Part shown: positions 2,736 through 33,463 of the stretch, piece after piece
Layout: each line of letters opens with the position of its first letter
Position numbering within the stretch: the stretch's first letter is position 1
Source of the DNA: Deltaproteobacteria bacterium
GTDB lineage: Bacteria; Desulfobacterota; WTBG01; CAIYCZ01; CAIRTM01
Length of the DNA stretch: 47,224 nucleotides
Direction of reading: 5' to 3'
NCBI GenBank assembly: GCA_024276465.1
Contig: JAJRXD010000167.1
Span: 1-47,224, forward strand
Notes under the pieces: model-generated
The model's database searches: none
Seen by the model: the letters and a program-made list of their open reading frames with translations, nothing else
Told to the model about the DNA's origin: nothing
Translations under genes and position numbers: made by a program

Positions 2736-5426
2736 TTAGCTGAAGACCCATTTGTCAATTTTTTCAAATACTATCTCCCTTTTAATGGGTTTTGAGATAT
2801 AATCGTCCATCCCTCCTTCAAGGCATTTCTCCATGTCTCCTTTCATGGCATTTGCGGTCATGGCAACAATGGGAATCCGGGTTGTGGGTTTACTATTCAC
2901 AGCCTGTTCGAAATTCCGAAGTTTTTCTGTTGCTTCAAATCCATCCATCTCAGGCATCTGTATATCCATTAAAATAAGGTCAAAATCTTTTGGTGATGCC
3001 GTGTACTTTTCAAAAGCCTCTCTTCCGTTTGTGGTTGTTTCCACCTGGTACCCAGCCTTTGTCAACATTTTTTCAGCAAGCTTCTGATTTACAGGGTTAT
3101 CTTCTGCAAGAAGAATTCGCACTGACCTCTTCTTCTCCTCTGCGACTGAATGCTTGGTTATAATTGCTGTTTTTGCTTCATTATTCTTCCGCATGCTTTT
3201 TGTTGAAGCTTTTCCAAGTATTCTCTCTATCATATGATGTAATTTTTTTCTGTTGACTGGTTTGGACAGAAAAGCGTCATACCCTGCCTCCTCACATTGC
3301 TTTGCATCCATCTGGGAAGATACAGCAACAAGGGGAATTTTTGACAGATCGCCTCCGGAACTGCGAATCTGTTTTGCCAGATCATATCCGCTCATACCCG
3401 GCATCTGAATATCAGAAAGGCAAATGTCAAAAGGAGCCTCTGTTTTAACTGCTTCCTGCAGAGTCTGCAGAGCCTTGTCACCGTTACAAAGAGATACAAC
3501 TTTCATGCCTATCATCTCTAAAATGTGCGTTAAGATATCCAGATTAGTAATGTTGTCATCGACTATCAGGGCCTTTTTGCCTGAAATTGAAACAGAGGAA
3601 ACCCTGCTGGTTTCTTTTTCCTCGGACTTCCTGACCCATGCCGTAAAATGGAATGTACTGCCCGTATTGACTTTACTTTCCACCCACACATCACCATTCA
3701 TTAGATTTGATATTCTTTTGCAAATTGAAAGGCCAAGACCCGTGCCACCGTACTTTCTTGTGGTAGAACCGTCAGCCTGCTGGAATGACTCAAAAATTAC
3801 AGATATTTTATCCTCAGGGATTCCTATACCGGTATCGCGGATTGTTGCATGGAGCTTCAAGAAATCACCCTTTTCCTCTTCAATGCCAAGTCCCAGCTCA
3901 ATTTCTCCTGATTCCGTGAATTTAGAGGCATTTCCCATAAGGTTAGTAATGACCTGTCTTAACCGTGTGGGGTCACCTTTTAACTGCATGGGGAGGTTGT
4001 CATCAATATGGCACATTATTTCAACCGGCTTGTCTCCAACCCTGGGCCGTACCAGGTCACAGACGTCATATGCCAAAAGCTCCGGGTCAAAATCGATCTC
4101 CTCAATATCCATTTGCCCTGCCTCTATCTTGGAAAAATCAAGTATGTCGTTTAACAGGGAAAGCAGTGCCTCTCCGCTTCGTTTTACAGTTTTTGCATAA
4201 TCTGTCTGATCTTCATTAAGGCTGGTGTCAAGAAGCATGTCAGTAAAGCCGATTATCCCGTTCATGGGAGTACGTATTTCATGACTCATGTTTGCCAGAA
4301 ACTCGCTCTTAGCCAGGTTGGCCATCTCTGCCTGCAGTTTCATATCGTTAGCCCTGAGAATCTCTTTCTCAAGTCTATCTTCAGTTTTTTTACGTTCTTC
4401 TATCTCTGCAATTAGATTTTTACGGCCCTTTTTGAGATTGTTTTCAATGCGGCCTAAAAAAACCCAGAAAAATATAACAATTACAGAAGTGCATGCGAGT
4501 ATGCCCAGTGAAAGATGTTTCAAAAGTTTAATGATCGAGGCTCTCTGGGCTTTAACATCATAGAGGACAACAATATTACCAATATGATTTTTGCTTGCAT
4601 CAATCAGGGGAATAAGACCGCTGAAAAATTCATCGCTGTCTGTCTGGAAAAAATATATTTCTCCTTTATTAAGTCGAGCCATGTGATCTTCTATGGGCAA
4701 TTTCGACAGGCTGTAATCCATGGTATTGTCAATAACAACATATTTTTTGTACCTGTTCCAGTCACCTACGCGCCCTGATGATGTTAAGCCCTTTTCCCAA
4801 TTTGTACGATTAAGGTATTTTTTGTTAATTAGAAAAATCAGGCCAAAATCATTGTCCATGGCTAACTTTAAAGTTATATGTCCGATCTCCTCACTCAGCT
4901 CAATATATCCTCTGATCTTACCATTTATTTTCCAGGGATGAACCACCCTCAGGAGAATAGTACCAGATTTTCCAAGCTCAATTCCGTAAACCTCACGCTC
5001 ATTTTTTTCTGCATCATAAATGGTCTGATGATCTACAACGTCACCATAATGGGACGGGTCATTAACGCGTAAAAAGTTGACTTTGTCCAATCCATGAAAA
5101 CAGAACTGAGTAACCATGTATTTAGATTGCATATACTCAAAAAACTCAGTGCTGGAGCGCAGGAGTTTTTCCCTGTCTTTTTTGAGATAGGAATCCTTTA
5201 AATCCCTTTCACGTTCAAAAAAGTAAATAAGACCTGACAGCAATTCAGCATCCCTGGCAAGTTCTCTTTTGAATATTCCCTGTAAACTGCTGATTTTCCT
5301 TTCTACTTCTTTTTCAAGTTTGTTCATCTGATATTGATAAAACACGAAGGAATACCCCAAAAGCAACAGGAACAACAGTGTTAAGACAGGACCGATAACA
5401 TTTATTCTGATTTTTTCACTATTCAT
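2736..5426 (-). CDS. Hybrid sensor histidine kinase with Cache-type sensor and two receiver domains
   Basis: This is a membrane sensor kinase of 896 residues. A transmembrane helix (about 10-32) and a second one (about 303-325) flank a periplasmic sensor of about 270 residues. The sensor has [12 protein letters not shown] and a later dyad-like repeat, which resembles double-Cache (dCache_3-like) sensors. A short linker leads to HisKA with phospho-acceptor His382 in [16 protein letters not shown], then HATPase (N box near 498, [17 protein letters not shown]). Two receiver domains follow, with Asp672 (SDIQMPG) and Asp821 (MDIQMPE). No output domain or histidine phosphotransfer domain is present, so a separate Hpt/regulator partner is expected. 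A GTG at 5495 would add 23 residues. Neither start has a good Shine-Dalgarno, and I prefer the ATG because it leaves a normal short cytoplasmic N-terminus. It is monocistronic between intergenic repeats, and its signal is unknown. Confidence 0.92.
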
Positions 5427-5579
5427 ATCACTACATTTTAGTTTGAAAAAACTAATGCATAAGCTGCTATTATATGACAATCCTTTGTAAAACACCTTAA
5501 GGTAAAGGAAATTTATTACAAATCAGTTCGTCTTTTTTTATAAAAAGATTAATATTATTTTAGCCACTGTGCGGGCGCT

Positions 5580-5717
5580 GGGGTCTGACCAAGCCAACAG
5601 GTTGTAAAAAAGGAACTTAACAAAGGTGTGGAAAAGAGGCAATTTTAAGGCATATAAGGCTGTTTGGGATAAAAAGGGCGTTGTAAGGGATTAGACAGGT
5701 TAGCTTTGTCAGACCCC
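5580..5717. repeat. Small inverted-repeat element with GGGGTCTGAC ends
   Basis: The 19 bases at 5580-5598 (GGGGTCTGACCAAGCCAAC) and those at 5699-5717 are near-perfect inverted copies (17 of 19 pair). They bound a 138-bp segment without coding capacity. A degenerate relative lies at about 2646-2730: it has GGGGTCAGGCAAAG, and its inner stretch AACTTAACAAAGG is shared with this element. A short trace (GGGGTCAGAG) lies near 760. This looks like a non-autonomous MITE or REP-type repeat, and no transposase is in the window. The rest of the 458-base gap 5427-5884 shows nothing I recognise. Confidence 0.55.
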
Positions 5718-5884
5718 GCCCCTCCTTGAATTTAAATCTTGAATTTGCTCCTGTTTTTTTATATTACTTCAAGTAACTTAAAAATCCCCTGGCTTTCGTG
5801 CTTTAACCCGGTCTGCACACTGTGAGTGTCTGCGGTTAATTGGTGGTGAGAGCTTTAACACATAAACAAAGGAAAACTTTAAGC

Positions 5885-6277
5885 ATGCCAAAAAAGTCCC
5901 GGAACAGTGACGAGAAGATGAAGCGGTTCTATGAAGATATCCGCCGCGAGCGAAGGGAGCGGCAGAAAGGTTACCGGGATAGAGCGCTTAGCATTTTGCC
6001 TCATGTGTGTGCACGGTGCAGCCGGGAGTTTGAGGGCAAAAAGCTGCTGGAGCTTACGGTTCACCACAAAGATCATAACCATGATAACAACCCGCCGGAT
6101 GGGAGCAACTGGGAGCTGCTGTGTATGTATTGCCACGAAGATGAGCACGCAAGAGATTTCAACGCAGAGTGGTATGACGGCTCCCTGGTCGATGTCGAAC
6201 CTGTAGCGTCATCTTCGGTCTTCAAGCCGTTTGCCGGTCTTGATGATCTTCTGAAGAGAAAAAAAGGTGAAAGATGA
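5885..6277 (+). CDS. yajD: YajD-like HNH nuclease family protein
   Basis: This 130-residue protein closely follows the pattern of E. coli YajD (about 115 residues). It has an N-terminal basic region, a zinc-binding pair in VCARCSREF, the HNH core LTVHHKDHNHDNNPPDGSNW, then ELLCMYCHEDEH with the second Cys-x2-Cys pair, and the C-terminal KPFAGLDDLLKRKK. In this family the paired cysteines bind a structural zinc and the His-His/Asn region forms the beta-beta-alpha-metal site. The biological substrate is not known. The ATG at 5885 is chosen because AAAGGA lies about 11 bases upstream and homology starts there; an upstream TTG at 5840 in the same frame lacks support. It is monocistronic. The N-terminus is about 15 residues longer and more charged than in E. 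coli. Confidence 0.85.
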   Translation: MPKKSRNSDEKMKRFYEDIRRERRERQKGYRDRALSILPHVCARCSREFEGKKLLELTVHHKDHNHDNNPPDGSNWELLCMYCHEDEHARDFNAEWYDGSLVDVEPVASSSVFKPFAGLDDLLKRKKGER

Positions 6278-6427
6278 TCCATACGTTGTTGCGACTCCGG
6301 AGCTGAAGTAATGAGGGAAAAAAAAGCAGATTGCCAGAGTGACGACGTCAACCAATCAAGCATACGCATTGCCTCACGAGAAAATCTCACCATAAGCGCA
6401 TTAGCAACGTTAATAAACATTGATAAA

Positions 6428-6572
6428 GTCGTAAAAAGTGAAAATTCGATGGCAAAGTAAAAAGCTTCAAATTCAAGGCGCGCAAATCCTGAGGAATGAG
6501 GCGTACTTACTGTACGTTGGAATGACGAAGGATGCCGCGCAACGTCGAAGTTGGACTTTTTACGAAGCCATC
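6428..6572. repeat. Palindromic intergenic repeat, family A copy 1
   Basis: This is one of five copies of a 130-200-bp repeat. It begins GTCGTAAAAAGT, contains GATGGCAAAGTAAAAAGC and AAATCCTGAGGAATGA, has an inner palindrome CGTACTTACTGTACG, and ends GACTTTTTACGAAGCCATC. The two ends are imperfect inverted repeats. It fills most of the 313-base gap between yajD and the convergent flavoprotein gene. The other copies are at 24083-24270, 26555-26696, 34191-34388 and, reversed, 38227-38361. Confidence 0.7.
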
Positions 6573-6590
6573 AACATTAGATGGTAAAGT

Positions 6591-7502
6591 TTATTTGACC
6601 AGTGCCCTGCCAGCCTCTTTTGCATCGGCCATGCCATTTTTATCCAGTCTGGCAGTGCCTTTTTCATAATATGCTTCCCAGAATCCTGATCCTGTAACAA
6701 CCTCTGCAGTATCCATTCCAAAAAGTTTAAGAATGAACATTGCATTTTCAACAACATGGTCATATGAATCTTCTGACGGCCATCCCCATGTAACTACCAG
6801 CGCTCCCTTTCTTTTTCTGCTTAGCTTCTGAAAATGACCTTTGGTTCTCAGAGCTTTAAGCCTGTCAAAAAAGGCAGATGCCTGGCTGCACTCCCTTCCT
6901 GTATAAACAGGAAAGCCCATCACAAAAGCGTCATATTCGATGAATTTTCTGTACAGATCAGTCATATCATCCTTGATGGCGCAGAATGTTTCAAGTTCCT
7001 TTTTCTCGCACGCCATGCACCCAATGCAGGGTGAAATCTTAAGATCTGAAATATATTTTTTTTCAATGTTGCACCCGGATTCACTTATGCCTTCCAAAAA
7101 CGCATCCATTATACAGTCAGTATTGCCGTTTTTTCTTGGGCTGGCCATGAGGGCAAAAACATTCTTAACCTGCACGTCAAGGTTCAGTGCCGGGATGTCC
7201 CAGCGCTTTATCCTGACTGCAGGGTTTTCTTTATCTACCTGTTTCTGGGAAGCAACTATCCCTGAAAGCTTTTCAGGAGATTTAAACTTCAGAATTACGG
7301 GTTCAAATGATTTGGCCAGTGTCTCTTCAAGTGCCTTCAGCAGAATGTCTTTTGTTGCCTCGCTGGAGCTCTGTTTTAAGAGCTGGTAATCTATCCCCTT
7401 CATGATTTTTTGCCTGCATGACTCCCTGCTGGCAAGGGGAAAAACTGAAATAAGTTTTTCCAGTACATCTTTTGCTTCATCTGAAAGTTTTATATTATTC
7501 AT
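6591..7502 (-). CDS. Iron-sulfur flavoprotein (NADPH-dependent FMN reductase family) with helical N-terminal domain
   Basis: This is a 303-residue cytoplasmic protein. Residues 113 to the end form a flavodoxin-like domain with the FMN-phosphate loop ASPRKNGNT (120-128). Four cysteines at 159, 162, 165 and 174 (C-x2-C-x2-C-x8-C) match the compact cluster motif of iron-sulfur flavoproteins (Isf), which pass electrons from ferredoxin through a 4Fe-4S centre to FMN. Residues 5-62 form a separate helical segment (LSDEAKDVLEKL...) that weakly resembles the PCP_red domain of dark-operative protochlorophyllide reductase; this match is tentative. The start has AGGAG seven bases upstream. It is the last gene of the six-gene minus-strand operon, 42 bases after the FAD protein, so it probably exchanges electrons with the ferredoxin or flavoprotein of that operon. 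Substrate unknown. Confidence 0.82.
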   Translation of the reverse strand: MNNIKLSDEAKDVLEKLISVFPLASRESCRQKIMKGIDYQLLKQSSSEATKDILLKALEETLAKSFEPVILKFKSPEKLSGIVASQKQVDKENPAVRIKRWDIPALNLDVQVKNVFALMASPRKNGNTDCIMDAFLEGISESGCNIEKKYISDLKISPCIGCMACEKKELETFCAIKDDMTDLYRKFIEYDAFVMGFPVYTGRECSQASAFFDRLKALRTKGHFQKLSRKRKGALVVTWGWPSEDSYDHVVENAMFILKLFGMDTAEVVTGSGFWEAYYEKGTARLDKNGMADAKEAGRALVK

Positions 7503-7544
7503 TTTTATTCTCCTGAAAAAATACAGTGTTTTGTGCTTCCAGCA

Positions 7545-8864
7545 TTACTTGTTCGGGAATCCCCATTTTTTCTGCTGCTCACCCAGATCCGCTGATTTAG
7601 TCCTCATCTCAATCAGCTTATCCATTATTTCAGGCCTTTCTTCCTGGATTTTCGGAAGAAGTTCAGCATAGGTTCTGCCGATTGAGCTGAAGAGAGTATA
7701 AAAATTCATTGTTGCCTTTATTGGCTTTGTAACAATAGAAGCAAGATAGTCAATTTCCTCACCAGACAGGAATTTTTGAAGCTCAGCAGAAGCAAATTCA
7801 ACGCTGCCATGGGGTTCGTAAAAGCTTTCATTCCACCACTTAAAATAACCTGAAAGGCCATCTTTATTATATTTTTTTTCAAGAAGTGCCTGGGTGACAG
7901 AATTGGCTGCCTTCCATCCTGTACAAAAGGATGCCATGTTGCTGATTTCTTTAAACCATGCGGCATCCCCTATTAAAAGAACATTATCCTTAAATGGTTC
8001 CTTAATGGGTGAATGTTCACTGACAATACAATTAATAGTTCCGACCCGGCTGGCCCTGGCAAACCATGAAGAGTAGGTTTTGTCTTCCTTAACAAAATTT
8101 TCAAGAACAGCATTCAAATTGGTGGCCGGGTTGTAGGAGAATGTGCTTAGATGAAACAGATCCTTCCTGTAGGTGGGTACAAGAGAAAAAGTTGCTTTGT
8201 CAGACAGTAGAAAATTAAAGCTTCCCGGGTCAATGGGAAATTCACCTTCCATTTCCCAGCAAAGGCTTCTCCATGTCCCATGAAATTTTCTCTCTTTGTT
8301 AAACCCGAGGACCCGGGCAATCCTTGAATTAACCCCGTCAGCAGCAATAACAAAACATGCTTCAAAGGTTTTATCCCCGGCCACTACCTGCACAGTATCA
8401 CCGCTTTTTTTGACATCAGTAACATTGGTACCGGGAAAAACATCCACATGGAACTTCTCAGCTTCAAGCAGCAGGCATTCCATCAGTTTATCCTTGCTTG
8501 TCGAAATTCCAAGGGCAACCTCATCACCCTTTTTTTTCACCTCTTCCCAGTCTCCAATGCAGATTCGATTACCTCCAGGAGAATGTATCTGGAACCCGTA
8601 AACACTTGACCACGGGCCGTCATAGGGTATGGTGAAACCGCAAACAGGAAAGCAGAAGCGTTTGTCACGGGTGTTATATTTCAGTATTTCCATAAAATGA
8701 TATTCGTTGATACCAAGTGCACCAGCATCAACCCTGGAAATTTTTGTCATATCTGTTTTTCTCTCAAGAAGCGCAACTTCAAGACCGTTCTCTCCGGCAG
8801 CTTTTGCAGCCATAAGCCCTGCAGGGCCTGCGCCAACGACTACCAGATCATATTTTTTTGACAT
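7545..8864 (-). CDS. FAD-dependent oxidoreductase, geranylgeranyl-reductase/FixC-like family
   Basis: This 439-residue flavoprotein has the N-terminal Rossmann motif VVVGAGPAGLMAA (8-20), a second FAD motif around AADGVNSRIARVLG, and the late GDAAW motif (VLLIGDAAWFKEISN) that binds the ribityl chain. The overall plan matches the geranylgeranyl reductase/FixC group, which reduces isoprenoid double bonds or quinones using ferredoxin or ETF electrons. There is no transmembrane segment. The start has GGGAG nine bases upstream. The neighbouring 58-residue ferredoxin gene lies 41 bases upstream, a FixC-FixX-like pairing that suggests ferredoxin as partner. The conserved Cys-rich or Trp catalytic loop of true lipid reductases cannot be verified by eye, so the substrate is open. 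Cofactor and family are fairly sure; the reaction is unknown. Confidence 0.82.
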   Translation of the reverse strand: MSKKYDLVVVGAGPAGLMAAKAAGENGLEVALLERKTDMTKISRVDAGALGINEYHFMEILKYNTRDKRFCFPVCGFTIPYDGPWSSVYGFQIHSPGGNRICIGDWEEVKKKGDEVALGISTSKDKLMECLLLEAEKFHVDVFPGTNVTDVKKSGDTVQVVAGDKTFEACFVIAADGVNSRIARVLGFNKERKFHGTWRSLCWEMEGEFPIDPGSFNFLLSDKATFSLVPTYRKDLFHLSTFSYNPATNLNAVLENFVKEDKTYSSWFARASRVGTINCIVSEHSPIKEPFKDNVLLIGDAAWFKEISNMASFCTGWKAANSVTQALLEKKYNKDGLSGYFKWWNESFYEPHGSVEFASAELQKFLSGEEIDYLASIVTKPIKATMNFYTLFSSIGRTYAELLPKIQEERPEIMDKLIEMRTKSADLGEQQKKWGFPNK

Positions 8865-8905
8865 GTTGATTTCTCCCTTTTTCTGATTAATAAAAAATCC
8901 CGTAA

Positions 8906-9082
8906 CTATTCCTCTTCAGCAGGGGCATTAACAGGACAGATTTTCACGCATATTTTACACTCAGTACATAAATCGTTGTCTATAACTACATTGTCATTAA
9001 TCATGCTAATGGCTGTTGCCGGGCATATGTCTATACATCCGCCGCATACCGTACAAACTTCAGTGTTAATCTTTATCACCAT
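8906..9082 (-). CDS. Small 2[4Fe-4S] ferredoxin
   Basis: This is a short gene of 58 codons. It has two classical cluster motifs: C10-x2-C13-x2-C16-x3-C20-P and C39-x2-C42-x2-C45-x3-C49-P. Together they make a bacterial dicluster ferredoxin, a low-potential cytoplasmic one-electron carrier. AGGAGG lies only two bases before the ATG, so the next codon (GTG at 9079) may be the true start; the protein changes by one residue. It sits between the Mo/W enzyme and the FAD protein with gaps of 51 and 41 bases, so it is the likely electron shuttle between them and the iron-sulfur flavoprotein. The acidic tail (APAEEE) is normal for such proteins. Confidence 0.92.
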   Translation of the reverse strand: MVIKINTEVCTVCGGCIDICPATAISMINDNVVIDNDLCTECKICVKICPVNAPAEEE

Positions 9083-9133
9083 GACCTCCTGTTCTGTTTA
9101 ATTATGAAAATTAAAAGTAAAAAATTATTTTTT

Positions 9134-11167
9134 TTATGCTTTACTAACACTGCAGAGCATTGACTTGAAAGCTGGAAATCCGGAAACAGGGTCTCTTTGC
9201 TGATCATCAGTAAGAAGATTGCAGTTTGCCTCTTCCCATCCGTGGGCAAGATGGACAACCCCGGGAAGTATGCCTTCACAGTATGATGCCTTAATTCTGA
9301 CTGATCCGCGTTTTGTCTTTACTATTGTTGAATCACCGTCCTTTATGTCCAGTGAAACTGCTGTTTCAGGATTGATCTGCATTAAAGGATCCGGAAAGAA
9401 TTTTCTGAGGCTTGGGATGTTTCTTTGCTGGGAATGGACAAACACAGGATACCTGCCGCCTGTAATAAGTATAAGGGGATACGCTTTTGCAGTTTCAGGA
9501 TCGCTCACAGGGCTTTCAGATGGTTCAACATACGATGGGAAGGGGTCGTATCCATTTGATTCCATTGATTTGGAATGGAGTTCAATTTTTTCGGAGTAGG
9601 TATAGAATCCATCACGCAGAATGCTGCCAGGTTCACGCGGATCAAGGATTCCACCGGGTAACTGTTTTAATTCCTGTACAGTGTGCCCTGAGGGTGAGAT
9701 CAGGAATTCTATTGCCTCACTGGCATCATTCCAGGGAAAGTGTTCTCCGTATCCCATAACCTTTGCAAGTTCCATCCATATTTTTGTGTCAGGCCATGGG
9801 CCCTGAGGCTCAAAGACTTTATTCTGAAGGATAAGGGGGTTTGTGGTAACCTCATCCCTTTCAAGAAACATTGCCGCAGGCAGTACAAGGTCAGCCTTTT
9901 TTGCAGTGGATGTCATGAACTGATCAATTACAACAGTAAACTCCATCTTATCCATCAGTTTTTCAACTTTTCCGCTGTTGGCCAGAATACTTAAAGGTGA
10001 TCCGCCAACTGAAACCATGCCACGTACTGGATAAGGGGTGTCGGATAATATCCTGTCAATTGCAGCAACTGCATGTGCCTGCTTAATCATCCCCACAAAC
10101 ATTGGATGTTCCTCTGCCCCAAGGGCCTTGTCCATGGAAAGATCAATTACATCCGGAGGTGTCAGGGGTGTCTGGTTCAGAAAAACATTGCCTCCCCTAA
10201 CGTCAATGTTACCTGTAATTGACATGAGTATGTTGATAGCCCGGATGTTCTGAACCCCGTTTATGTGGTGCTCAACACCCGTGCCGATTTTAAAGCATGC
10301 AGGTTTTGTTGTGGCAAGCAACCTTGCAGTTTCATTGATTGTATTGCGGGGTACCCCGGTTATCTGCTCTATTTTTTTAAGTGGATAATCCTTAATAAAG
10401 CTTTTAAAATCTTCAAACCCTGATGTATATTTTTCTATATAAGTTTTGTCTTCAAGGTTTTCCTCAAGGATGGCCCTTATAAATCCAAGCGCAAGTGCAC
10501 CGTCAGTTCCTGGTCTGGGCTGTATGAAAATATCTGACAGTTCAGCTGCTTCAGTTCTGCGAGGATCAACAGTGATAAATTTTGCTCCATTTTCTTTTCT
10601 TTTTTTAAGCAAACCGGTCATCTGAGGATAGCTTTTCCCAAGGCCACCGCTTGCCAGAGGATTTGAGCCCCATAAAACAATACAGTTGCTGTTTTCATAA
10701 TCAGGCAGGGGTATGTTGCCGAATGTCGCAAAGTTTGCAAGCATGAGGGCAAGAAAGCACTCACTTCCTGCAGAAGAAAGATTAACAGCTTCGTAAAGGT
10801 TGAAAAACCTTTTCATCATGAAGAACGCGAGGCGGTTTTTTACGTATGTCTGGCCATGGTAAATGAAAAGTCCCTCAGGTCCGTAACGGTCCTTAATGTC
10901 CTGAAGCCCCTCTGAGCATATTTTAAGAGCTTCATCCCATGAAATTTCTTTCCATGATCCGCCCTCTTTTTTTAAAGGATGCCTGAGCCGGTCCGGTGCG
11001 TTATAGATATTTTTTGCAGCCATACCCTTGGGGCATAAAAAACCCTTGCTGTACGGATGCTCCTTTAACCCCCGGATTTCAACAATATCATTGTCCTGTG
11101 CTGTTACCTGCATACCGCAGGAATGCTCGCAGACTCCGCAGAATGTGTTAATGGTTGTTGTTCCCAT
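9134..11167 (-). CDS. Molybdopterin (Mo/W-bisPGD) oxidoreductase, cytoplasmic
   Basis: This is a 677-residue member of the DMSO-reductase superfamily. The N-terminus holds a 4Fe-4S site with Cys10, 13, 17 and 45 (FCGVCEHSCG ... FLCPKG), then LRHPLKKEGGSWKEISWDEA, typical of the fold. Pterin-contact signatures include VLWGSNPLASG, FITVDPRRTEAA, QPRPGTDGALALG and, at the C-terminus, LITGGRYPVFVHSQQRN and a molydopterin-binding beta-barrel. The probable metal ligand is Cys137 in SSAGSECF, which would place it near the Cys-ligated thiosulfate/polysulfide reductase-like and formate dehydrogenase-like groups. There is no Tat signal, so it should stay in the cytoplasm, unlike the exported PsrA/PhsA enzymes. 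It lies 69 bases after the sulfite-reductase-like gene and 51 before the ferredoxin gene. Substrate unknown. Confidence 0.9.
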   Translation of the reverse strand: MGTTTINTFCGVCEHSCGMQVTAQDNDIVEIRGLKEHPYSKGFLCPKGMAAKNIYNAPDRLRHPLKKEGGSWKEISWDEALKICSEGLQDIKDRYGPEGLFIYHGQTYVKNRLAFFMMKRFFNLYEAVNLSSAGSECFLALMLANFATFGNIPLPDYENSNCIVLWGSNPLASGGLGKSYPQMTGLLKKRKENGAKFITVDPRRTEAAELSDIFIQPRPGTDGALALGFIRAILEENLEDKTYIEKYTSGFEDFKSFIKDYPLKKIEQITGVPRNTINETARLLATTKPACFKIGTGVEHHINGVQNIRAINILMSITGNIDVRGGNVFLNQTPLTPPDVIDLSMDKALGAEEHPMFVGMIKQAHAVAAIDRILSDTPYPVRGMVSVGGSPLSILANSGKVEKLMDKMEFTVVIDQFMTSTAKKADLVLPAAMFLERDEVTTNPLILQNKVFEPQGPWPDTKIWMELAKVMGYGEHFPWNDASEAIEFLISPSGHTVQELKQLPGGILDPREPGSILRDGFYTYSEKIELHSKSMESNGYDPFPSYVEPSESPVSDPETAKAYPLILITGGRYPVFVHSQQRNIPSLRKFFPDPLMQINPETAVSLDIKDGDSTIVKTKRGSVRIKASYCEGILPGVVHLAHGWEEANCNLLTDDQQRDPVSGFPAFKSMLCSVSKA

Positions 11168-11236
11168 CAGTTTTCTCTCTTTTTAATATGGATGAAAGAC
11201 AGATCATTTTTTTAAAGCAGCTTTTCTGCACTTAAG

Positions 11237-12106
11237 TTACCGTATTGCATCAGGGCCTTCAGTGTCAATAATAGTTCTTAATGATTCCCCTGGCCTGGCA
11301 TTCCTCAATTTTGCAATGGCGTTTTTAAGTATTGTAAGGACTCTGTCCCTGGAAGTAAAGTCTTCGATAGTCTTTGCGAGGCAAGGATCGCGTCCTCCTG
11401 CTCCCCCGGCAATTACACGGAAGCCCCTTTCATTTACAGTCAGCTTGCCTGCAGGGCAGTCTCTGGCACACAGTTCGCATTGAACGCATGTTTTTCTGTT
11501 AATGACAGGTCCGTCATCTGTGAGGTGAATGGACTTGTCAATGCACATTTTCAGACAGTTCCCACACTGTGTGCACTCTTCATCAGTAATGTCAACCCTG
11601 TGCTGCATTATAATGCCGAAATCCTTCATGTATGGACTGACACAGCAGTTTGGACAACCTGTCATTCCAACAGTAAATCGGCTGGCCCCATGCAGTGCGA
11701 CCACAGCAAGGTCAGCCATAATTTCAGTGAGTTTCTCTTTTTCCATAACAGATTTTATTGACCGCATCATATCCTTGAGCGCTTCTCGCACCAGTTCACT
11801 GTTTTCGCCGTATTTAGTAAAACAGGTATCAATAAAAAACAGAGCGCTCTCATCATCGAAAAAAAGTTCATCTTCAAGCTCGGGAGCTGGCCCTGTTCCG
11901 TTAAGAAAGGCTTTAAACTGTTCATATTTTTCCCTGCCCATAAAATCCGCATACATTTTTTCAGTCTCTTTCAACACTTCTGCAGTGACATGATCAAGGC
12001 CTTTATGCCTTGCAGTTTTTTCAGACTGCAGGCGGGCATAAGGGCTCATCATGGGTGGTATCGGCAGCATTTCATGGATCTTCTCAGCGTCTTTTTCCCA
12101 TTTCAT
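11237..12106 (-). CDS. Sulfite/nitrite-reductase-like half domain fused to dicluster ferredoxin, with PCP_red-like N-terminus
   Basis: This is a 289-residue cytoplasmic protein. Residues 1-55 (W3, E8-A-type start, then ARHKGLDHVTAEVLKE) resemble the PCP_red helical domain of protochlorophyllide reductase. Residues about 130-170 carry VGMTGCPNCCVSPYMKDFGI, the second cysteine block of sirohaem sulfite/nitrite reductases. A ferredoxin insert follows with C178/181/184/188 and C207/210/213/217, then VIAGGAGGRDPCLA, the usual C-terminal reductase signature. The layout recalls AsrC, but the first C-x5-C pair that also holds the 4Fe-4S/sirohaem centre is not visible; only Cys95 occurs in the right area. 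A normal coupled sirohaem site is therefore doubtful. The ATG at 12106 has GGGA seven bases upstream and replaces a longer unsupported start. It is 49 bases downstream of the Tat gene. Confidence 0.78.
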   Translation of the reverse strand: MKWEKDAEKIHEMLPIPPMMSPYARLQSEKTARHKGLDHVTAEVLKETEKMYADFMGREKYEQFKAFLNGTGPAPELEDELFFDDESALFFIDTCFTKYGENSELVREALKDMMRSIKSVMEKEKLTEIMADLAVVALHGASRFTVGMTGCPNCCVSPYMKDFGIIMQHRVDITDEECTQCGNCLKMCIDKSIHLTDDGPVINRKTCVQCELCARDCPAGKLTVNERGFRVIAGGAGGRDPCLAKTIEDFTSRDRVLTILKNAIAKLRNARPGESLRTIIDTEGPDAIR

Positions 12107-12155
12107 AATGCTTTCCCTTTCTGTCTGGTTCCAGGTGATAACCACATTAAACTAA

Positions 12156-13142
12156 TCATGATATAAGCCCCAGTTTCTTTTTAATAGAAGCTACAGTATA
12201 TGTGAATGGGGGCACAGCACGCTGCCCAAAACCATTCGCTGTTACAGCATTATTAAACTCCTCAACCACATTGTAAATACATCCGATGAAACTGGTTGAA
12301 CCACCATGATACGCAGCATGTGACAGTGCCAGATAGTATCTCCAGTCCTCAAATTTTTTAACAGGGGAGGGGTCATTGTAATGGACAAGGAAGGGGATTG
12401 TTCTGATCTCCCAGCACGGAGCTGAAGCTGTCTGCCATATGTCAAGAAACAGCACTGTTGCAACAGGATTTTCCATCATGTTCTGGAAAGTATGGGTTTC
12501 CTTAAAGCCAAAAGCTTCAAAACCAGTGAACAGTTCCAGGGACCCCAGAGCTGTTCTGTCCCACAGTGATTTTTCATTGTAAATTTCTATTCTCCATGAC
12601 CTGAGATCTTCGGCAAGGTCCGGGTCCCTGGCATCAGCCCTTTCCTTAAAGCTCTCCATTGCCGTGATAAGTTCCTTCATGTATTCATCCCTGGGAAGAA
12701 GGGCCATTCCCTTTATTGCAGTGTTAAGTGAAAACGAACTGTCTCCTCTTCCTTTCCTGTTTCCACATGTTGCCACTGTTGGGTGATGGTGCCCGCCATT
12801 TGCCATGGGATGGTCAGCTTCTCCAGCCATAATAGAATACATGTCCAGTTTATCTTTTATGTACCAGTCAAAAAAATTATCATCAAGTTCTGCCAGCCTG
12901 TAAGTGTGCCACCAGTGGTCAACCCTTGCCTTAAGGGTAGCGTCATTAATTTTATCAGCTTTTACTGTGCTGTGAACAAAATACTGCTCTCCATCGGGCC
13001 CTGTTATCCAGTAGTCCTTTTTTGAATTCGGTTCTCTGCTAAGTGCAGTCTTTAAGCTGGAAAGGATGGTACCAGACAAAAGTGATGCCCCGCCCCATTT
13101 CAGGAAAGACCTTCTTTTGATACCTTTGGTATTATTCTCCAT
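12156..13142 (-). CDS. Tat-exported protein of unknown function, paralogue A (GGHHHP family)
   Basis: This is a 328-residue protein with a twin-arginine signal (KRRSFLKWGGASLLSG, residues 9-24), so it should be exported folded, probably with a cofactor. The start at 13142 is fixed by AGGGGA seven bases upstream; the longer frame to 13229 would bury the Tat motif. I do not recognise the family. It shares ordered blocks with the protein at 13675-14838: ARVDxxW and YRLAELD (72-87), NGGHHHP (115-121), GDSSFSLNTAIKG (133-145), SLWDRT with GSLEL (192-204), THTFQNMMENP (216-226), YHGG (278-281), VVEEFNN (292-298) and VPP (310-312). The clustered histidines suggest a metal site. It is the first gene of the six-gene redox operon. 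An enzymatic or electron-accepting periplasmic role is inference only. Confidence 0.8.
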   Translation of the reverse strand: MENNTKGIKRRSFLKWGGASLLSGTILSSLKTALSREPNSKKDYWITGPDGEQYFVHSTVKADKINDATLKARVDHWWHTYRLAELDDNFFDWYIKDKLDMYSIMAGEADHPMANGGHHHPTVATCGNRKGRGDSSFSLNTAIKGMALLPRDEYMKELITAMESFKERADARDPDLAEDLRSWRIEIYNEKSLWDRTALGSLELFTGFEAFGFKETHTFQNMMENPVATVLFLDIWQTASAPCWEIRTIPFLVHYNDPSPVKKFEDWRYYLALSHAAYHGGSTSFIGCIYNVVEEFNNAVTANGFGQRAVPPFTYTVASIKKKLGLIS

Positions 13143-13260
13143 TGTTAGTTCCCCTGTTACGATAATACTCACAGCAACAATGTTGAGGATTTCGGGAAAA
13201 GCTGATTTATACCCCTGAAATCCGGGCATCCTTTTAGAAACGACGCTGCATTTCTGACAG

Positions 13261-13549
13261 GGAAAACAGAACCTGTCATTTCGAGTTCTGACATTAGTCA
13301 GTGGAAAAATTTTTTACTGGTTCTAACAGTGGCTGAACGAAAAGTCCTGATTCAGGTTAAAATCTGATCAATAATTTTCTGTAGGAGCGCCTTCAGGCGC
13401 GATATTACGCAGCAACAGGTCTGTTTTTCGCGGCTAAAGCCGGCTCCTGCATACGCCGCGCTAACAAAAACAGGGTTTTCGTTCAGCCTCTAATTAAAGA
13501 AGATGAGATTTTTCGTCGTGAGTTCCTCGAAATGACAATCTTGTTTTCC
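13261..13549. mobile_element. Three nested MITE-like palindromic elements
   Basis: The outer arms at 13261-13285 and 13526-13549 are inverted copies (GGAAAACA...TGTCATTTCGAG). Inside lies a second element at 13328-13492. Its ends, AGTGGCTGAACGAAAAGT and the inverted GTTTTCGTTCAGCCTCT, match the element at 16818-16974. Inside that is a third palindrome around GTAGGAGCGCCTTCAGGCGC and CGGCTAAAGCCGGCTCCTGC (about 13381-13450). None encodes a protein. This stack separates the two Tat paralogues and occupies most of the 532-base gap 13143-13674. Confidence 0.65.
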
Positions 13550-13550
13550 T

Positions 13551-13647
13551 ACAATTCAAAACAGCCCGGCCACTTTGCTGTAAGCTTTACCAGCTTAGCT
13601 GCAGCATTCTGCAATCCCCGACCAGGTCGGGGATTGCTTTGAATTGT
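13551..13647. repeat. Hairpin with perfect 13-bp stem inside a wider inverted repeat
   Basis: GCAATCCCCGACC at 13611-13623 pairs perfectly with 13625-13637 around a single base. The pair ACAATTCAAA (13551-13560) and TTTGAATTGT (13638-13647) forms wider arms. It lies 38 bases beyond the stop codon of the upstream Tat gene and could end or stabilise its transcript. No T-run follows on the minus strand, so a classical intrinsic terminator is not supported. Confidence 0.5.
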
Positions 13648-13674
13648 GCCTCCTGCTTTTTGATTTCAGCAGTA

Positions 13675-14838
13675 TTAAACAGGCAGCTTTAATTTTTTAA
13701 TTACCTCGATTTTTTCCTCTTTGGAAAGTTTTTTCCTGTTTCTGTTCAGCTTTACATTTGCCATATTTGATGCAGTGGTTCCGTAGTTATAAGGCGGTAC
13801 CACACGTTTGCCCCTGCCATAGGGATCATAGCTTGGGGTGGTGTTGAACTCCTCAACCACAAGGAAGATATTTGTTGCAATATCGCAGTTTCCACCATGG
13901 TACCTGCAGTGTGCGTCATTGATGTAAGTGGAGATTTTCTGCTCATATTCACTGTTAGCGGGGTTGTGATGGGCAATAAGCCAGCAGAACCCCTTAAATG
14001 TCCATTCCGGTATAAGTCCCTCAATCCCTTCCAGAAAATTCTGGCCTCCCTCAGTGCTCCAGAATCCCATGTATGTAAGTGTCGACATGGGGTTGGCCAT
14101 GATATTCTGGAAAGTTTTGGTTTCATCGAAGCCGTAACCACCGGCTGTATCTTCTGCATTGATCGGGCGGCCAGAGTAAAGTTCAAGGGTTCCCATTCGG
14201 GTCTTGTCCCACAGGCTTCTGTCCTGGTAAAGGTCTTTCCTGAGCTTAAACAGGTCTACAGGCAGGTTCGCTTTGCCAGCCTCTGAAGCAGCATAGATGT
14301 TGTCCACTTCAGTATTTATAATATCAATACTTTCCGCCTTTGGTACAATGGTGAAGCCCTTAACCGCAGTATTGAGATGAAAATCACTGTCACCCCTTCT
14401 TCCGAATTTTCTACCATAAGTTCCCAGTATGGGATGGTGATGTCCACCGTTTGGTATGCCGGTTTCATCAATTTCATTGTTAAAATAAGCAATGAGCTGA
14501 TCATAGTACCAGAGCTTTTCAGATATCCACCATTCATGGAATTCACTGTCATACTCTGCCAGTTTATATTTTTTCCACATGCCGTCCACCCTGGCAGTAA
14601 CTATTCCCTTATCATTTGCTTTGTCTGTCTTGATATTTTTTGGAACAAAGTACAGATTGCCTTCCGGGTCGGTTTGCCATTGTGTTGAAGATCCGGAAAT
14701 CTTAGGTTCACCGGCATTTACGTTCCCCCATTTGGCAAAATAAGGGAAAGAGATTCCCAGCCCCAGTGAAGCCCCGGTTAGCTTTAAAAAAGAACGCCGC
14801 TTGATACTGTTTTCTTTAGAATGTTTTTTTTCCTTCAT
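13675..14838 (-). CDS. Tat-exported protein of unknown function, paralogue B (GGHHHP family)
   Basis: This is a 387-residue protein with a twin-arginine signal (IKRRSFLKLTGASLG, 12-26) and a strong start: AGGGAGG five bases before the ATG. It is a longer paralogue of the protein at 12156-13142. Shared blocks are ARVDGMW and YKLAEYD (82-97), PNGGHHHP (129-136), GDSDFHLNTAVKG (149-161), SLWDKT and GTLELYSG (208-223), KTFQNIMANP (241-250), YHGG (313-316), VVEEFN (327-332) and VPP (347-349). It has an extra Lys-rich tail of about 30 residues. The conserved histidines and Tat route suggest a folded, metal- or cofactor-bearing periplasmic protein. I recognise no named family. It lies between its probable regulator and the redox operon; whether transcription runs through the repeat-filled gap to the next gene is unclear. 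Confidence 0.8.
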   Translation of the reverse strand: MKEKKHSKENSIKRRSFLKLTGASLGLGISFPYFAKWGNVNAGEPKISGSSTQWQTDPEGNLYFVPKNIKTDKANDKGIVTARVDGMWKKYKLAEYDSEFHEWWISEKLWYYDQLIAYFNNEIDETGIPNGGHHHPILGTYGRKFGRRGDSDFHLNTAVKGFTIVPKAESIDIINTEVDNIYAASEAGKANLPVDLFKLRKDLYQDRSLWDKTRMGTLELYSGRPINAEDTAGGYGFDETKTFQNIMANPMSTLTYMGFWSTEGGQNFLEGIEGLIPEWTFKGFCWLIAHHNPANSEYEQKISTYINDAHCRYHGGNCDIATNIFLVVEEFNTTPSYDPYGRGKRVVPPYNYGTTASNMANVKLNRNRKKLSKEEKIEVIKKLKLPV

Positions 14839-14893
14839 GCTGCCCTCCCTGAGATTATATTGTTTTGATTCAACTGCAAAAGTTCTAAACTAA

Positions 14894-14930
14894 CATTATA
14901 CTATACTATGTAATAAAATTACTATGTGAA
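14894..14930 (-). promoter_or_regulatory. Possible promoter/operator before the Tat paralogue B gene
   Basis: The 148-base gap between the regulator gene and the Tat gene is AT-rich. On the minus strand it holds overlapping TATAGT/TATAAT boxes at 14895-14905, with TTCACA at 14925-14930 about 19 bases upstream. Between them is a 13-base perfect dyad, GTAATAAAATTAC (14910-14922). The position and symmetry would suit a LuxR-type binding site next to the promoter, and the adjacent gene encodes a LuxR-type protein. The spacing is not ideal, so this is tentative. Confidence 0.3.
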
Positions 14931-14986
14931 GTTGTAAAAAGGCAAGACTGGATTAATATTGGTATATTACTAGGATAAAGCAGGTG

Positions 14987-16339
14987 TTATTTAATAGATA
15001 AAAGGTAAGATCTCAGGTTGGCGCTTTTGTTTTTTATTCCAAATTTTTTTCTGATATTGTTTCTGTGAAATTCGATTGTTTTAGATGATAAATTCATTAA
15101 TTCTGCAATTTCTTTACTTCTTTTACCATCCTTAACAAGATTTGCTACTTTGATTTCTGAAGGCGTAAGGTTTAAAAAACTGGAACCTAATCTGTGTGGA
15201 AATGGAGAAATTATATCTTTAAGATTTGATTCAATGTTGTTCAGGCAGCGTTTCTGTTCATGATTCAGTTCACTGGTATTCAATTTTTTAACATAGGGTA
15301 AAACAAGTTTCTCAACATTGAATAAAACTTTCTCCTCTATCTCTGTTTTATCCTCATCTCTTTTATTCAGGAGAACTCGCAGGGCTGTATTTACCTCCTC
15401 AAGATTATGGGTTTGAACCTCCATCTCTTTTTTGCTTTTTAATAATGCCTCCTCAGCCTGTTTACGTTCAGTTACATCACGCATTATTGCCATAAAAATG
15501 TATTCAGCTCCTGACTTTAACAGAGAAACCGAGAATTCAGATGGAAACTCACTGTTGTCTTTTCTGGCCCCGACACCCTGAAGCACTCTTCCTTCAAAAA
15601 ACAGATGTCCGGCTGAAATTGCCTGCCTGAATATTTGCATCTGTGCTTTATGGAATCGCTGTGGGACTATTAGTAAAAATGACTTGTTCAGAACCTCATT
15701 GACAGGATATCCGAAAATTTCTTCAGCTCGACGGTTCCAGGATTTAACATTTCCTCTGCTGTCAAATGTCATTATTGCATCGTTTGCTGTTTGAACAAGG
15801 GACCGGTAACGATCTTCACTCTCACGCAGAGACTCTTCGGCTCTTTTCCGGTCGGTAATATCTTCTCCTGAGCAGATAATCTCTGTGATCCGGTTATTTT
15901 TGTTTCTTATAAATGCATTGTGCCAGGCAATAATTTTAATTTTTCCGCTTTTAGCGAGAAACCGGCCCTCAAAATACCCGACTGAGCCTATATCTCCCGC
16001 CATCAGTTTTTTATAGGAAATTTTAGGATGTGCAGCTTTGTTTGGTTTATCATGCAGGCTGAAAAGAATATCAGGCCATTTTTTGTTAACAATCTGCTTC
16101 TCAGTGCATTCAAAAACCTCACAGGCCTTTCTGTTGGCTAAAGTAACCCTTCGATTTTCATTAAGAGCTATGAAAATCACTCCTGCAAGGTCAAGATACT
16201 GCTTTGCTTTTTTTTCCTCTAATGCCTCAACTGTCAGTCTGCGATCTGTTTCCCGTGCCTCAAGTCCTGCAATGTACAGCCGCAGTTTAGAGATCTCATT
16301 TTCAAGTTGTTCTTTTGTCTTGTTTTTGTCAGCAATCAT
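14987..16339 (-). CDS. PAS-PAS-LuxR transcriptional regulator
   Basis: This is a 450-residue soluble protein. An N-terminal coiled coil (about 5-45) is followed by PAS 1 (about 45-165, ending EIICSGEDITDRKRAEE) and PAS 2 (about 170-290, with GYPVNEVLNKSFLLIVP and ending MRDVTERKQAEE). A second helical linker follows. The C-terminal LuxR/GerE helix-turn-helix spans about 388-445 (LTPSEIKVANLVKDGKRSKE, then SSKTIEFHRNNIRKKFGI). It has no kinase or receiver domain, so the PAS domains probably sense a ligand or redox state and drive DNA binding directly. This architecture is common in Desulfobacterota. It lies directly upstream of and co-oriented with the Tat gene, so control of the redox operon is a reasonable inference. 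The Shine-Dalgarno is weak. Confidence 0.88.
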   Translation of the reverse strand: MIADKNKTKEQLENEISKLRLYIAGLEARETDRRLTVEALEEKKAKQYLDLAGVIFIALNENRRVTLANRKACEVFECTEKQIVNKKWPDILFSLHDKPNKAAHPKISYKKLMAGDIGSVGYFEGRFLAKSGKIKIIAWHNAFIRNKNNRITEIICSGEDITDRKRAEESLRESEDRYRSLVQTANDAIMTFDSRGNVKSWNRRAEEIFGYPVNEVLNKSFLLIVPQRFHKAQMQIFRQAISAGHLFFEGRVLQGVGARKDNSEFPSEFSVSLLKSGAEYIFMAIMRDVTERKQAEEALLKSKKEMEVQTHNLEEVNTALRVLLNKRDEDKTEIEEKVLFNVEKLVLPYVKKLNTSELNHEQKRCLNNIESNLKDIISPFPHRLGSSFLNLTPSEIKVANLVKDGKRSKEIAELMNLSSKTIEFHRNNIRKKFGIKNKSANLRSYLLSIK

Positions 16340-24295: not shown

Positions 24296-25357
24296 ATGTC
24301 AGGATTTAAATTAATAAAAAGAGGAGGATGTTTTACAATATCTGTCAGCCTGTTTTTTATAGTGCTCCTGCAAGAGCTTTTTCTCCCCCGCGCTTTTGCT
24401 GACAACAGGCAATTAATTACAAAGTCAGGACCACTGCTTCATACGTTTGTTGAAATAAAGGCCTATGGTGAAAATGCCGGACAGGCTATAGATGCAGCTT
24501 TTAATGAGATGGAGAGGATAAACGCTCTTCTAAACAATTATAACAGCGATAGCGAAGTTTCAATGATAAACAGGCAGGCTGGATTAAATCCTGTCCTGAT
24601 AAGTTCTGATACAATGCAGGCATTACAACTTGCAAAAAAATTTGGTGATATTTCCAGAGGTGCATTCGATATTACCATAGGTCCCCTGCTTGAATTATGG
24701 GGTTTTGCACAGGAGGAGGCTGGGTTAGGGGTTACGGAACCGGATATTGACTCTGTCAGAAAGGCAAAGTTCTACGTTGATTATAATGCGCTGGAACTCA
24801 ACAGCGGAAAAAGCAGAAATGATTCAGGAACTGCAAGGCTGAAAAAGAGGGGGATGCGGATTGATGTTGGAGCGTTTTCAAAAGGGTATGTGGCTGACCG
24901 TGCCATGCAGGTTTTGAAGAAAAATGGGATTGCAAATGCTTTGATATCAGCGGGTGGAACAATCCTTGCTCTTGGCAAAAGGCCTGAATCAACATTGTGG
25001 AGAATTGGCATCAGGCATCCGAGAAAGCCCCAGAGCTTTTTAACAGTTGTTTTGCTGACTGACAAAGCTGTTTCAACTTCAGGAGATTATGAAAAATTTT
25101 ATAAAAAAAACGGAAAAAAAAGAACACACATTATTGATCCGCGCACTGGTATGCCGGTGGAAAAAATGCAGTCTGTAACAGTGATTGCCAAAAGCGCTGT
25201 TGAAAGTGATGCACTTTCAACAGCGCTTTTTGTTTTAGGTGTTGACGAAGGTATTGACCTTGTTAACAGGCTGCCAGGTGTGGAAGCATTGATTGTTACA
25301 GGTGAGGGAAAAATATTTTTTTCTACCGGATGGCCGGAGAAGAATGTTTTCTATTAA
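24296..25357 (+). CDS. apbE: FAD:protein FMN transferase ApbE
   Basis: This is a 353-residue exported protein with a Sec-type signal (hydrophobic 14-30, AFA before residue 37). It transfers FMN from FAD to Thr of target proteins such as RnfG/RnfD and NqrB/NqrC in the periplasm. Family marks include FDITIGPLLELWGF, the GAFSKGYVADRA block, SAGGTILALG, STSGDYEKFY and HIIDPRTGMPVE; the acidic metal ligand region AVESDALSTALFVLG follows. The ATG has no Shine-Dalgarno at normal distance; AGAGGAGG occurs 30 bases inside the gene. It is monocistronic and immediately downstream of a family A repeat. A perfect 19-bp hairpin lies in the coding region at 25190-25230. No rnf or nqr genes are nearby. Confidence 0.95.
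   Translation: MSGFKLIKRGGCFTISVSLFFIVLLQELFLPRAFADNRQLITKSGPLLHTFVEIKAYGENAGQAIDAAFNEMERINALLNNYNSDSEVSMINRQAGLNPVLISSDTMQALQLAKKFGDISRGAFDITIGPLLELWGFAQEEAGLGVTEPDIDSVRKAKFYVDYNALELNSGKSRNDSGTARLKKRGMRIDVGAFSKGYVADRAMQVLKKNGIANALISAGGTILALGKRPESTLWRIGIRHPRKPQSFLTVVLLTDKAVSTSGDYEKFYKKNGKKRTHIIDPRTGMPVEKMQSVTVIAKSAVESDALSTALFVLGVDEGIDLVNRLPGVEALIVTGEGKIFFSTGWPEKNVFY
25190..25230. other. Perfect 19-bp hairpin inside apbE
   Basis: AAAAGCGCTGTTGAAAGTG (25190-25208) is the exact inverted complement of 25212-25230, with ATG as the three-base loop, and five T residues end the right side. In RNA this would look like a strong intrinsic terminator within the coding region. The encoded residues are the conserved ApbE block AKSAVESDALSTALF. 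Confidence 0.75.
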
Positions 25358-26699: not shown

Positions 26700-28088
26700 T
26701 TACTTCCCGTATTTGTCCCAATATGTCCTGAACAGTTTGTCTTCTTCAGGAATGTTCTCCGGAATGGGCTTTGAAACCCAGGTATAATTGACCATGTTTC
26801 TCCAGGTTATATTGTCGGTTGTACTGTTTCTGCCCCAGGTTCCGCAGGCAAGTGTCATGGTAAAAGGCATGCCGTTAGTGAATGAACCGCTGTTTGCAAG
26901 GCACTGGGGCTGGTTTACCATAAGCCTGCTGACACGTGCTTCTTCGGCCAATTCCTTTATCCGTTCCTCATTTTTTGTATGTATCCCGCAGCAGTGTCCT
27001 TTTCCGCGTACTGCATGAATCCGTTTGAGATAATCAAGAGCATCGGTGAACTCATTGTATTTCCAGAGGGTGAGAACAGGTGACAGCTTTTCATCAGCAA
27101 ATTTGTCGTTTTCAACCGGGTCTTCACCAAGCACCATGAGAAAGCGTGTTCCTTCCGGTACATTCAGCCCGGCAATTTTGTTTGCGATCCTTTCAGCAGA
27201 ACGTGCAACAGCCTTTCCGTTTATATGTTCACCATCAGGCCACAGGGCTTCTTTAAGCTTTGATTTCTCCTCGGCACTGCAAAGATAGCCATTGTGTGAC
27301 TTGAGGCCCTCAAGGGTTTGATCCCACACAGACTCCTGTATTACTGCATTGTTTTCAGCTGAGCAGGATGTGGCGTTATCAAAAGTTTTGCTCATGAATA
27401 TTTTTTCAGCTGCATCAGCAACATCAGCAGTTTCATCAACTATCATGACAGAGTTGCCGGCTCCTACGCCTAATGCTGGTTTCCCGCTTGAGTATGCTGC
27501 TATTACGGACTGGGTGCCGCCTGTGGATATTACCATGTCAGAAGCGGACATCATTGTCTGAATGTCTTCAATAAACGGTTTTTCCATGCACTGTATCAGG
27601 TCAACAGGAGCCCCGACTTTTTCAAGGCCCTTGCGCATGAATTCTACGGCTTTTCCTCCGCAGCGCCTTGCTATCATGTGTGGTGCAAAAATGATGGCAT
27701 TGCGTGTTTTCAGTGAACTGATGCCTTTTATCACCGGTGTAGCAGTAGGGTTAGTGCATGGAGTGGGTGCGAAAATAACGCCCATGGGTTTAATTACCTT
27801 GAAAATGCCCTTTTCCCTGTTTTCTTCCACAATCCCCGTTGTCTGGGCGCCTTCCATGTCACGCAGGGCTCCAAGAACCTTGTTTCGGTGTTTGGCATAC
27901 TTGTTTTCATAGATACCCATTTTTGTCTCTTTTACTGCAAGTTCCGCACATTCTTTTGCGTTTTCCGGCTTGATTGCTTCCCAGGCAGCTGCAAGTACCA
28001 TTTCATCTACTTTTTCCTGTGGCCAGTGTTCTACGGCTTCATATGCTTTTTTAGCCCTGTCAAGCATGTCCTGTAATACTTCGTTCAT
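26700..28088 (-). CDS. Acylating CoA-dependent aldehyde dehydrogenase, sulfoacetaldehyde dehydrogenase-like
   Basis: This 462-residue member of the aldehyde dehydrogenase superfamily is of the acylating type, which interconverts aldehyde + CoA + NAD(P)+ and acyl-CoA. It has GVIFAPTPCTNPTATPV, STGGTQSVIAAYSSGKPALG (nucleotide and coenzyme binding) and catalytic Cys242 in NATSCSAENN. GMPFTMTLACGTWG and SRLMVNQPQC near the end agree with the AdhE N-terminal/SauS/EutE group. The pattern reminds me most of SauS (sulfoacetaldehyde to sulfoacetyl-CoA), but acetaldehyde or propionaldehyde forms cannot be excluded. GGAGG lies four to five bases before the ATG. There is no microcompartment targeting peptide, shell gene or alcohol dehydrogenase nearby. 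Confidence 0.85.
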   Translation of the reverse strand: MNEVLQDMLDRAKKAYEAVEHWPQEKVDEMVLAAAWEAIKPENAKECAELAVKETKMGIYENKYAKHRNKVLGALRDMEGAQTTGIVEENREKGIFKVIKPMGVIFAPTPCTNPTATPVIKGISSLKTRNAIIFAPHMIARRCGGKAVEFMRKGLEKVGAPVDLIQCMEKPFIEDIQTMMSASDMVISTGGTQSVIAAYSSGKPALGVGAGNSVMIVDETADVADAAEKIFMSKTFDNATSCSAENNAVIQESVWDQTLEGLKSHNGYLCSAEEKSKLKEALWPDGEHINGKAVARSAERIANKIAGLNVPEGTRFLMVLGEDPVENDKFADEKLSPVLTLWKYNEFTDALDYLKRIHAVRGKGHCCGIHTKNEERIKELAEEARVSRLMVNQPQCLANSGSFTNGMPFTMTLACGTWGRNSTTDNITWRNMVNYTWVSKPIPENIPEEDKLFRTYWDKYGK

Positions 28089-29226: not shown

Positions 29227-29234
29227 ATGATGAT

Positions 29235-31157: not shown

Positions 31158-31262
31158 ATTTTATTCATCTCCTCAGCTATACTTTATCAGTTAATCAGTA
31201 TCAAAGATTAATAAAGCAGCAAACAGAGGCTGTTATTTAATCAGATGAACAGGCGTATAAAA

Positions 31263-33175: not shown

Positions 33176-33463
33176 ATAGATGTCATCCTTGTTATTGTAT
33201 CTTTCAGGGTATAAAACCTTAGCCTTTCCCGTTAAAGGCGGTATCTTTGAAAGGCAGGGAATGTTAACAGTATAAATCTAATTTATTGTAATGTCATTTT
33301 GCTCAGCCCCAGAAGAATTTTTTTCATTTAGCCCCGGTGCATCGGGAGACTGAATCCACCCCGTCACATCAGGGTGCTAATTCTTATTAAGGCAGTTGTT
33401 TTTGTAATACAATATATGGATCGTAGAGCTCAGCCTGATTCGGTGGGCTTGTTGGAATATGAT

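Follow-up and report, generated by a model that had tools for sequence, protein, structure and literature searches.

The window analysed here, a stretch of 47,224 nucleotides, carries on its minus strand two genes, P0001 (12156..13142, 328 aa) and its paralogue P0002 (13675..14838, 387 aa), whose products are both predicted to combine a twin-arginine leader with a split beta-barrel protein. The first-pass annotation had described them as paralogues with Tat-type leaders and eight ordered common blocks, and our comparison agrees: the leader motif KRRSFLK is present in both, BLASTP aligns the two proteins along their whole length (E 2e-67, 36% identity across 346 columns), and all eight blocks were located in the same order in each. 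With the leaders removed, the local alignment score was 501, against 34.9 ± 5.0 with a maximum of 52 in 200 shuffles, and since the observed score lies far above the shuffle maximum, a chance likeness is excluded. Among the blocks of P0001 are GGHHHP (residues 116-121), RGDS (132-135), HTFQN (217-221) and YHGG (278-281); at the putative cofactor-phosphate helix P0002 has KT, not HT. The two genes are not tightly coupled, because they are separated by a 532-bp spacer (13143..13674) that contains a REP-like palindromic element (13380-13397).

Downstream of P0001, and also on the minus strand, follow in order a 4Fe-4S/NIR_SIR-domain protein (11237..12106, 49 bp from P0001 if the inner ATG at 12106 is the start; the ORF listing gives a GTG start at 12145), a molybdopterin oxidoreductase of the formate/nitrate-reductase type with no visible leader (9134..11167), an FAD-dependent oxidoreductase whose best match, below the cut-off of the model, is the geranylgeranyl-reductase superfamily (7545..8864), and a flavodoxin-fold/FMN_red protein (6591..7502). 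The NIR_SIR/4Fe-4S protein is small and has a weak PCP_red-like N-terminus, and two distant relatives of it, one with a heavy-metal-associated (HMA) domain, lie near another member of the family at locus L022. Upstream of P0002, on the same strand, is a PAS/PAS/LuxR-type protein (14987..16339), a possible regulator of the locus. Further away in the window, inspection by eye suggested an ApbE-like flavin transferase with a signal peptide (24296-25357), an aldehyde dehydrogenase (26700-28088) and, beside the latter, a set of genes resembling a cytochrome c/NrfD/HdrD-like membrane redox complex (28426-33946). No clear flavinylation motif was seen in the sequences of P0001 and P0002.

The mature parts of the two proteins are covered by no Pfam or NCBIfam family. 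The Pfam hits were confined to a weak Tat leader in each protein (TAT_signal at 16.1 bits for P0001 and 12.1 for P0002, below its cut-off) and, in P0002, some chance hits besides. NCBIfam matched neither protein, phmmer and profile searches of PDB sequences returned chance matches only, and a literature search for the motif found nothing. AlphaFold2 models built on family alignments (mean pLDDT 79 for P0001 and 72 for P0002, with many barrel stretches above 90) were compared with known structures by Foldseek and VIA-align 2, and for both models nearly all the identified matches listed were split barrels. The closest was HupZ, with Z 12.2 and an rmsd of 1.9 Å over 125 of its 126 residues (17% identity) for P0001, and Z 11.5 and 1.9 Å for P0002; the P0001 model also matched the Desulfovibrio vulgaris FMN-binding protein (Z 9.9) and Escherichia coli PNPOx (Z 9.8), and further matches included PNP oxidases and F420-binding and haem-binding relatives. 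The Foldseek E-values were modest (3e-4 and 7e-4 at best), probably because inserted helices stretch the alignment, and the assignment rests instead on the uniformity of the match list and the low rmsd along the whole HupZ chain. In the predicted architecture a helix precedes strand 1 of a six-stranded barrel, strands 2 and 3 are separated by a helical hairpin, and the N-terminal part contributes a beta region of its own. The earlier view that this is an unrecognised family thus fails the test that had been set for it, since both predicted structures match the known FMN-binding split beta-barrel (PNPOx-like) fold.

Because fold matches alone can mislead, sequence homology was sought in addition. 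Neither protein matched Pfam PNPOx_N (PF01243) at E values up to 1, and no signal came from hhalign comparisons with ordinary PNPOx proteins from the family's own class (six from the genome of the window, G000, and one from G001), so that bridging homologues were needed. With the family profile, a 206-residue protein was recovered from a different family of the phylum (L060:1129-1749, E 3.6e-6). The alignment by hhalign of the profile with this protein extends over 190 columns (98.5%, E 3.9e-15), and the protein lies above the PNPOx_N cut-off (31.7 vs 28.1 bits). Used in turn as a query, L060 recovered L083 and L086, the latter a HupZ-type ordinary PNPOx (PNPOx_N 73.6 bits; HupZ 4e-20). Taken alone, the link between L060 and L086 (E 6.6e-4) is weak evidence, but both the fold and the separate Pfam match are consistent with it. 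When these sequences are aligned together, nearly all of them share the positions N, K, T, N, NP, E and G. Homology to accepted split-barrel members is therefore detectable at the sequence level, through bridges only. The annotation's statement that the proteins belong to no named family stands as far as Pfam and NCBIfam models are concerned, but they do not form an unrecognisable family, given models with an FMN-binding split barrel and a homologue above the PNPOx_N cut-off.

The blocks can be placed on the predicted barrel (residue numbers of P0001). ARVDxxW falls in the N-terminal extension, and LAExD in the segment that leads into helix 1; GGHHHP lies between helix 1 and strand 1, just before the strand, and RGDS in the loop between strands 1 and 2. 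LNTAIKG (139-145) is strand 2 with the canonical NxxxK, its counterpart in L086 being PNVTPKG. HTFQNMMENP (217-226) corresponds to the helix after strand 3 with the pattern [H/K]TxxNxxxNP, which in relatives holds the phosphate or propionate of the cofactor; YHGG lies between the last helix and strand 6, just before the strand, and VVEEFN forms the last strand, where L086 has TVEEIYD. RGDS is present in all Tat members, one of which has T for S, and absent from L060, a short, leaderless PNPOx homologue that keeps HNP and YH. The helical hairpin (152-189) has a corresponding helical stretch in L060 as well and is therefore not tied to export. From the alignments and models, the features specific to the family would be the predicted Tat export, the N-terminal extension, the RGDS loop and the helical hairpin between strands 2 and 3.

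Conservation, counted over 20 family members, is highest for GG, RGD, N140, P150, E215, N221, N225 and P226. Of the His clusters that had been called conserved, the claim holds for H119, the middle His of GGHHHP (18/20), and for H279 of YHGG (19/20), but not strictly for H118 (14/20) or H120 (12/20), and at loci L036 and L037 GGVYCP replaces GGHHHP so that all three His are gone. These counts bear on the idea of a new metalloenzyme in which the His of GGHHHP and YHGG form a metal site inside the barrel dimer. The constancy of H119 and H279 speaks for it, and Tat export suits pre-loaded metal cofactors; against this, the L036 and L037 members lack every GGHHHP His, L060 retains HNP and YH yet is a short leaderless PNPOx homologue, and no metalloenzyme fold was found among the matches listed. 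Such a site is possible, not favoured, and we regard a metalloenzyme of this kind as very unlikely.

The family is multiplied within single genomes and narrowly distributed. Genome G000 (4.1 Mb, 95% complete) gave seven matches, of which those at the ends of contigs C171 and C132 overlap in sequence and look like the two halves of one gene, so we count six family genes. Members occur in 10 of the 17 genomes of the same class, and among 395 genomes of the phylum full-length members are confined to that class; the phylum-wide hits beyond it that were read were other Tat-leader proteins (xanthine-dehydrogenase-type molybdopterin oxidoreductases and an Fe-S protein), L060 being the exception. When 85,000 species genomes were scanned with the alignment of the P0002-type subfamily as query, eight loci emerged, all in metagenome-assembled genomes labelled Thermodesulfobacteriota, Pseudomonadota/Proteobacteria or plain bacterium, five of which probably correspond to records already counted; the same kind of scan of genome contigs with a single protein as query gave no match, and no relative was found in the viral contigs scanned. 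One more candidate homologue, at L084 in genome G253, gave no readable ORF under the filter used and was set aside. The tree, in which some forks are weak and some branches long, contains several divergent subfamilies, with P0002 grouping with a gene on contig C172 of the same genome and P0001 standing alone. It had been proposed that the two proteins are subunits of one heteromer, as their adjacency, common strand and shared leader type would allow. The spacer with its REP-like element, the position of the two genes on different branches, with the nearest relative of P0002 on another contig, and the lack of a second such pair in any other neighbourhood examined leave this proposal without support, and we hold it to be most improbable.

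As to the cofactor, split barrels bind FMN, FAD, F420 or haem (PMC12204192, PMC8131568), and the pocket can be inferred here from secondary structure and alignment. We judge a flavin (FMN) to be the most likely cofactor, with somewhat more for it than against; haem is a clearly less likely candidate, at any rate for paralogues of the H type, P0001 among them, and the remaining probability falls to a metal or to no cofactor at all. Since the GGVYCP of two members leaves none of the three His, a His-bound metal fits less well than a flavin or haem. F420 is unlikely in this genome, since no CofD family protein was found in G000 (~95% complete) by a search that was positive in 10 of 14 control genomes. 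At the [H/K]T position a His is present in 16 of the 20 members, P0001 included (with HT replaced by HY in four of them and by HS in one), and a Lys in P0002 and three others. Judging by these residues, the KT form of P0002 looks like the flavin binders and the H form of P0001 like the HugZ group.

The latter likeness raises the alternative of a periplasmic haem-binding or haem-processing protein of the HugZ/HutZ/Pden_1323 type, in which the HTxxN His would hold a propionate, H119, H279 or a haem peptide would provide the axial ligand, and the function would be haem storage, c-haem salvage or haem-based redox. HutZ, Nostoc alr5027, ChuZ, HugZ and PA4388 have a His at the same place as the 16 members (the query for this comparison was a HutZ stretch, the evidence being the retrieved chains of solved members), HTKNIEANP of alr5027 resembles HTFQNMMENP of P0001, and cytochrome genes adjoin two members. 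The carboxylates of haem are contacted by H63 of HutZ and by H64 of Pden_1323, a protein that degrades c-type haem (PMC8131568, PMC6018153). However, the four Lys members agree by alignment with the Desulfovibrio FMN-binding protein, the second propionate ligand (HutZ R92) aligns with C, E, T, H, A, V, S or N in the family, and neither P0001 nor P0002 has a His after strand 6, where HugZ has its axial ligand. DUF2470, which marks the HugZ/ChuZ subset, did not match either protein at E values up to 1. Oxidative haem cleavage requires O2, whereas the neighbouring genes look anaerobic, and haem is usually not loaded before Tat export. A haem protein of this type is, in our estimation, unlikely.

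The closest known systems share the fold of the family and differ from it in other respects. HupZ of group A Streptococcus (PDB 7kpz, 5esc), linked in sequence through L086, superposes with its whole barrel on P0001, but this small protein lacks a Tat leader, the N-terminal beta region, the RGDS loop, the inserted helical hairpin and the GGHHHP and YHGG blocks; it is reported not to bind FMN (PMC6018153). The FMN-binding protein of D. vulgaris Miyazaki F (1wlk, 3amf) has the same fold (Z 9.9, rmsd 2.6-2.7 Å, 116 aa), and in our alignment its KT corresponds to KT of P0002 and HT of P0001, although it has 122 residues, no leader, 13-14% identity over the aligned residues and neither RGDS nor the His blocks. 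This protein is a dimer with FMN near Trp32 and Trp106 (PMC8695315). The HugZ/HutZ/ChuZ/Pden_1323 haem proteins share the fold and an HTxxNxxxNP-type motif with the propionate His, but the family lacks the second propionate Arg (by alignment), the C-terminal axial His and the DUF2470 match. Pyridoxine 5'-phosphate oxidase (1dnl, 1wv4; Z 9.2-9.8) is a cytoplasmic enzyme of the same fold, whereas P0001 and P0002 have an export leader and no match to PNPOx_N.

All 20 members carry an RRxFLK or RRxFMK twin-arginine leader, and TatC is encoded in the genome. Our preferred reading, of which we are fairly confident as regards fold, family and export, is that both genes belong to a Tat-type family, divergent within the FMN-binding split beta-barrel (PNPOx-like) superfamily and with a fold closest to HupZ, whose products would be exported. 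The family is real, unannotated and lineage-specific, but it has a known fold and represents a variant within a familiar superfamily. The protein would fold in the cytoplasm around its cofactor, plausibly inserted before export as had been suggested, and then be exported by Tat; by analogy with its relatives, the working form would be a homodimer that binds the cofactor where the two subunits meet. H119 and H279 may sit near this cofactor and either modulate it or act on the substrate.

Periplasmic redox work is pointed to by the Fe-S, molybdopterin, FAD and FMN genes in the window, by a molybdopterin neighbour shared with another locus (a 53% identical homologue near the family member at L032, on contig C477 of genome G010, from another family of the order) and by the multihaem cytochrome genes that directly precede the members at L036 and L037, together with further flavodoxin, PNPOx and FrhB-like genes at L037. 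Most other members have unrelated gene neighbourhoods, so that gene context says little about the substrate and none can be named. We tentatively suggest one- or two-electron chemistry in the periplasm, with electrons passing to or from c-type cytochromes or other flavoproteins, in which the paralogues would serve different partners. A bolder and rather doubtful extension is that this Tat-exported branch includes, within one genome, paralogues whose cofactor site has changed between a flavin type (KT) and a haem type (HT), the His of GGHHHP and YHGG forming a new periplasmic catalytic or metal/haem site that works with multihaem cytochromes. If the paralogues of one genome do use different cofactors at the same site, they would offer a good natural experiment on the choice between flavin and haem in split barrels. 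With this assignment, a family of exported proteins that lacked annotation, has multiplied several-fold and comes from uncultured bacteria, for the most part Thermodesulfobacteriota, joins a superfamily of ~300,000 sequences (PMC12204192).

Other split-barrel proteins were noted as well. The L037 locus also encodes a flavodoxin, a CXXCH-bearing PNPOx protein and an FrhB-like protein, the last so called for clustering with the protein at L035, itself identified by Pfam. The PNPOx-domain protein at L037:10688-11506 and another at L088:6068-6622 (contig C138 of G000) begin with a signal-like segment and carry a motif of the CXXCH type (CNDCH, CVECH), and from their sequences they are possible periplasmic split barrels tethered to haem c; that at L088 is just under the PNPOx_N cut-off and appears truncated or frameshifted. 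By eye, the surrounding L088 cluster (3594-15715) contains three GG-reductase-like FAD proteins, several PNPOx proteins, an FrhB-like and a HemD-like protein, and it is related in kind to the FAD protein at 7545-8864 of the window. Finally, the REP-like 18-mer of the spacer has 87 copies in the genome when up to two mismatches are allowed, while the reversed control has 0. The copies often form inverted pairs spaced by about 40 bases, and contig C3 carries an array of them. Adjoining another copy of the family, at L025:10603-11298 (contig C125), is a protein that by eye resembles a REP-associated tyrosine transposase (RAYT) and might mobilise these elements.
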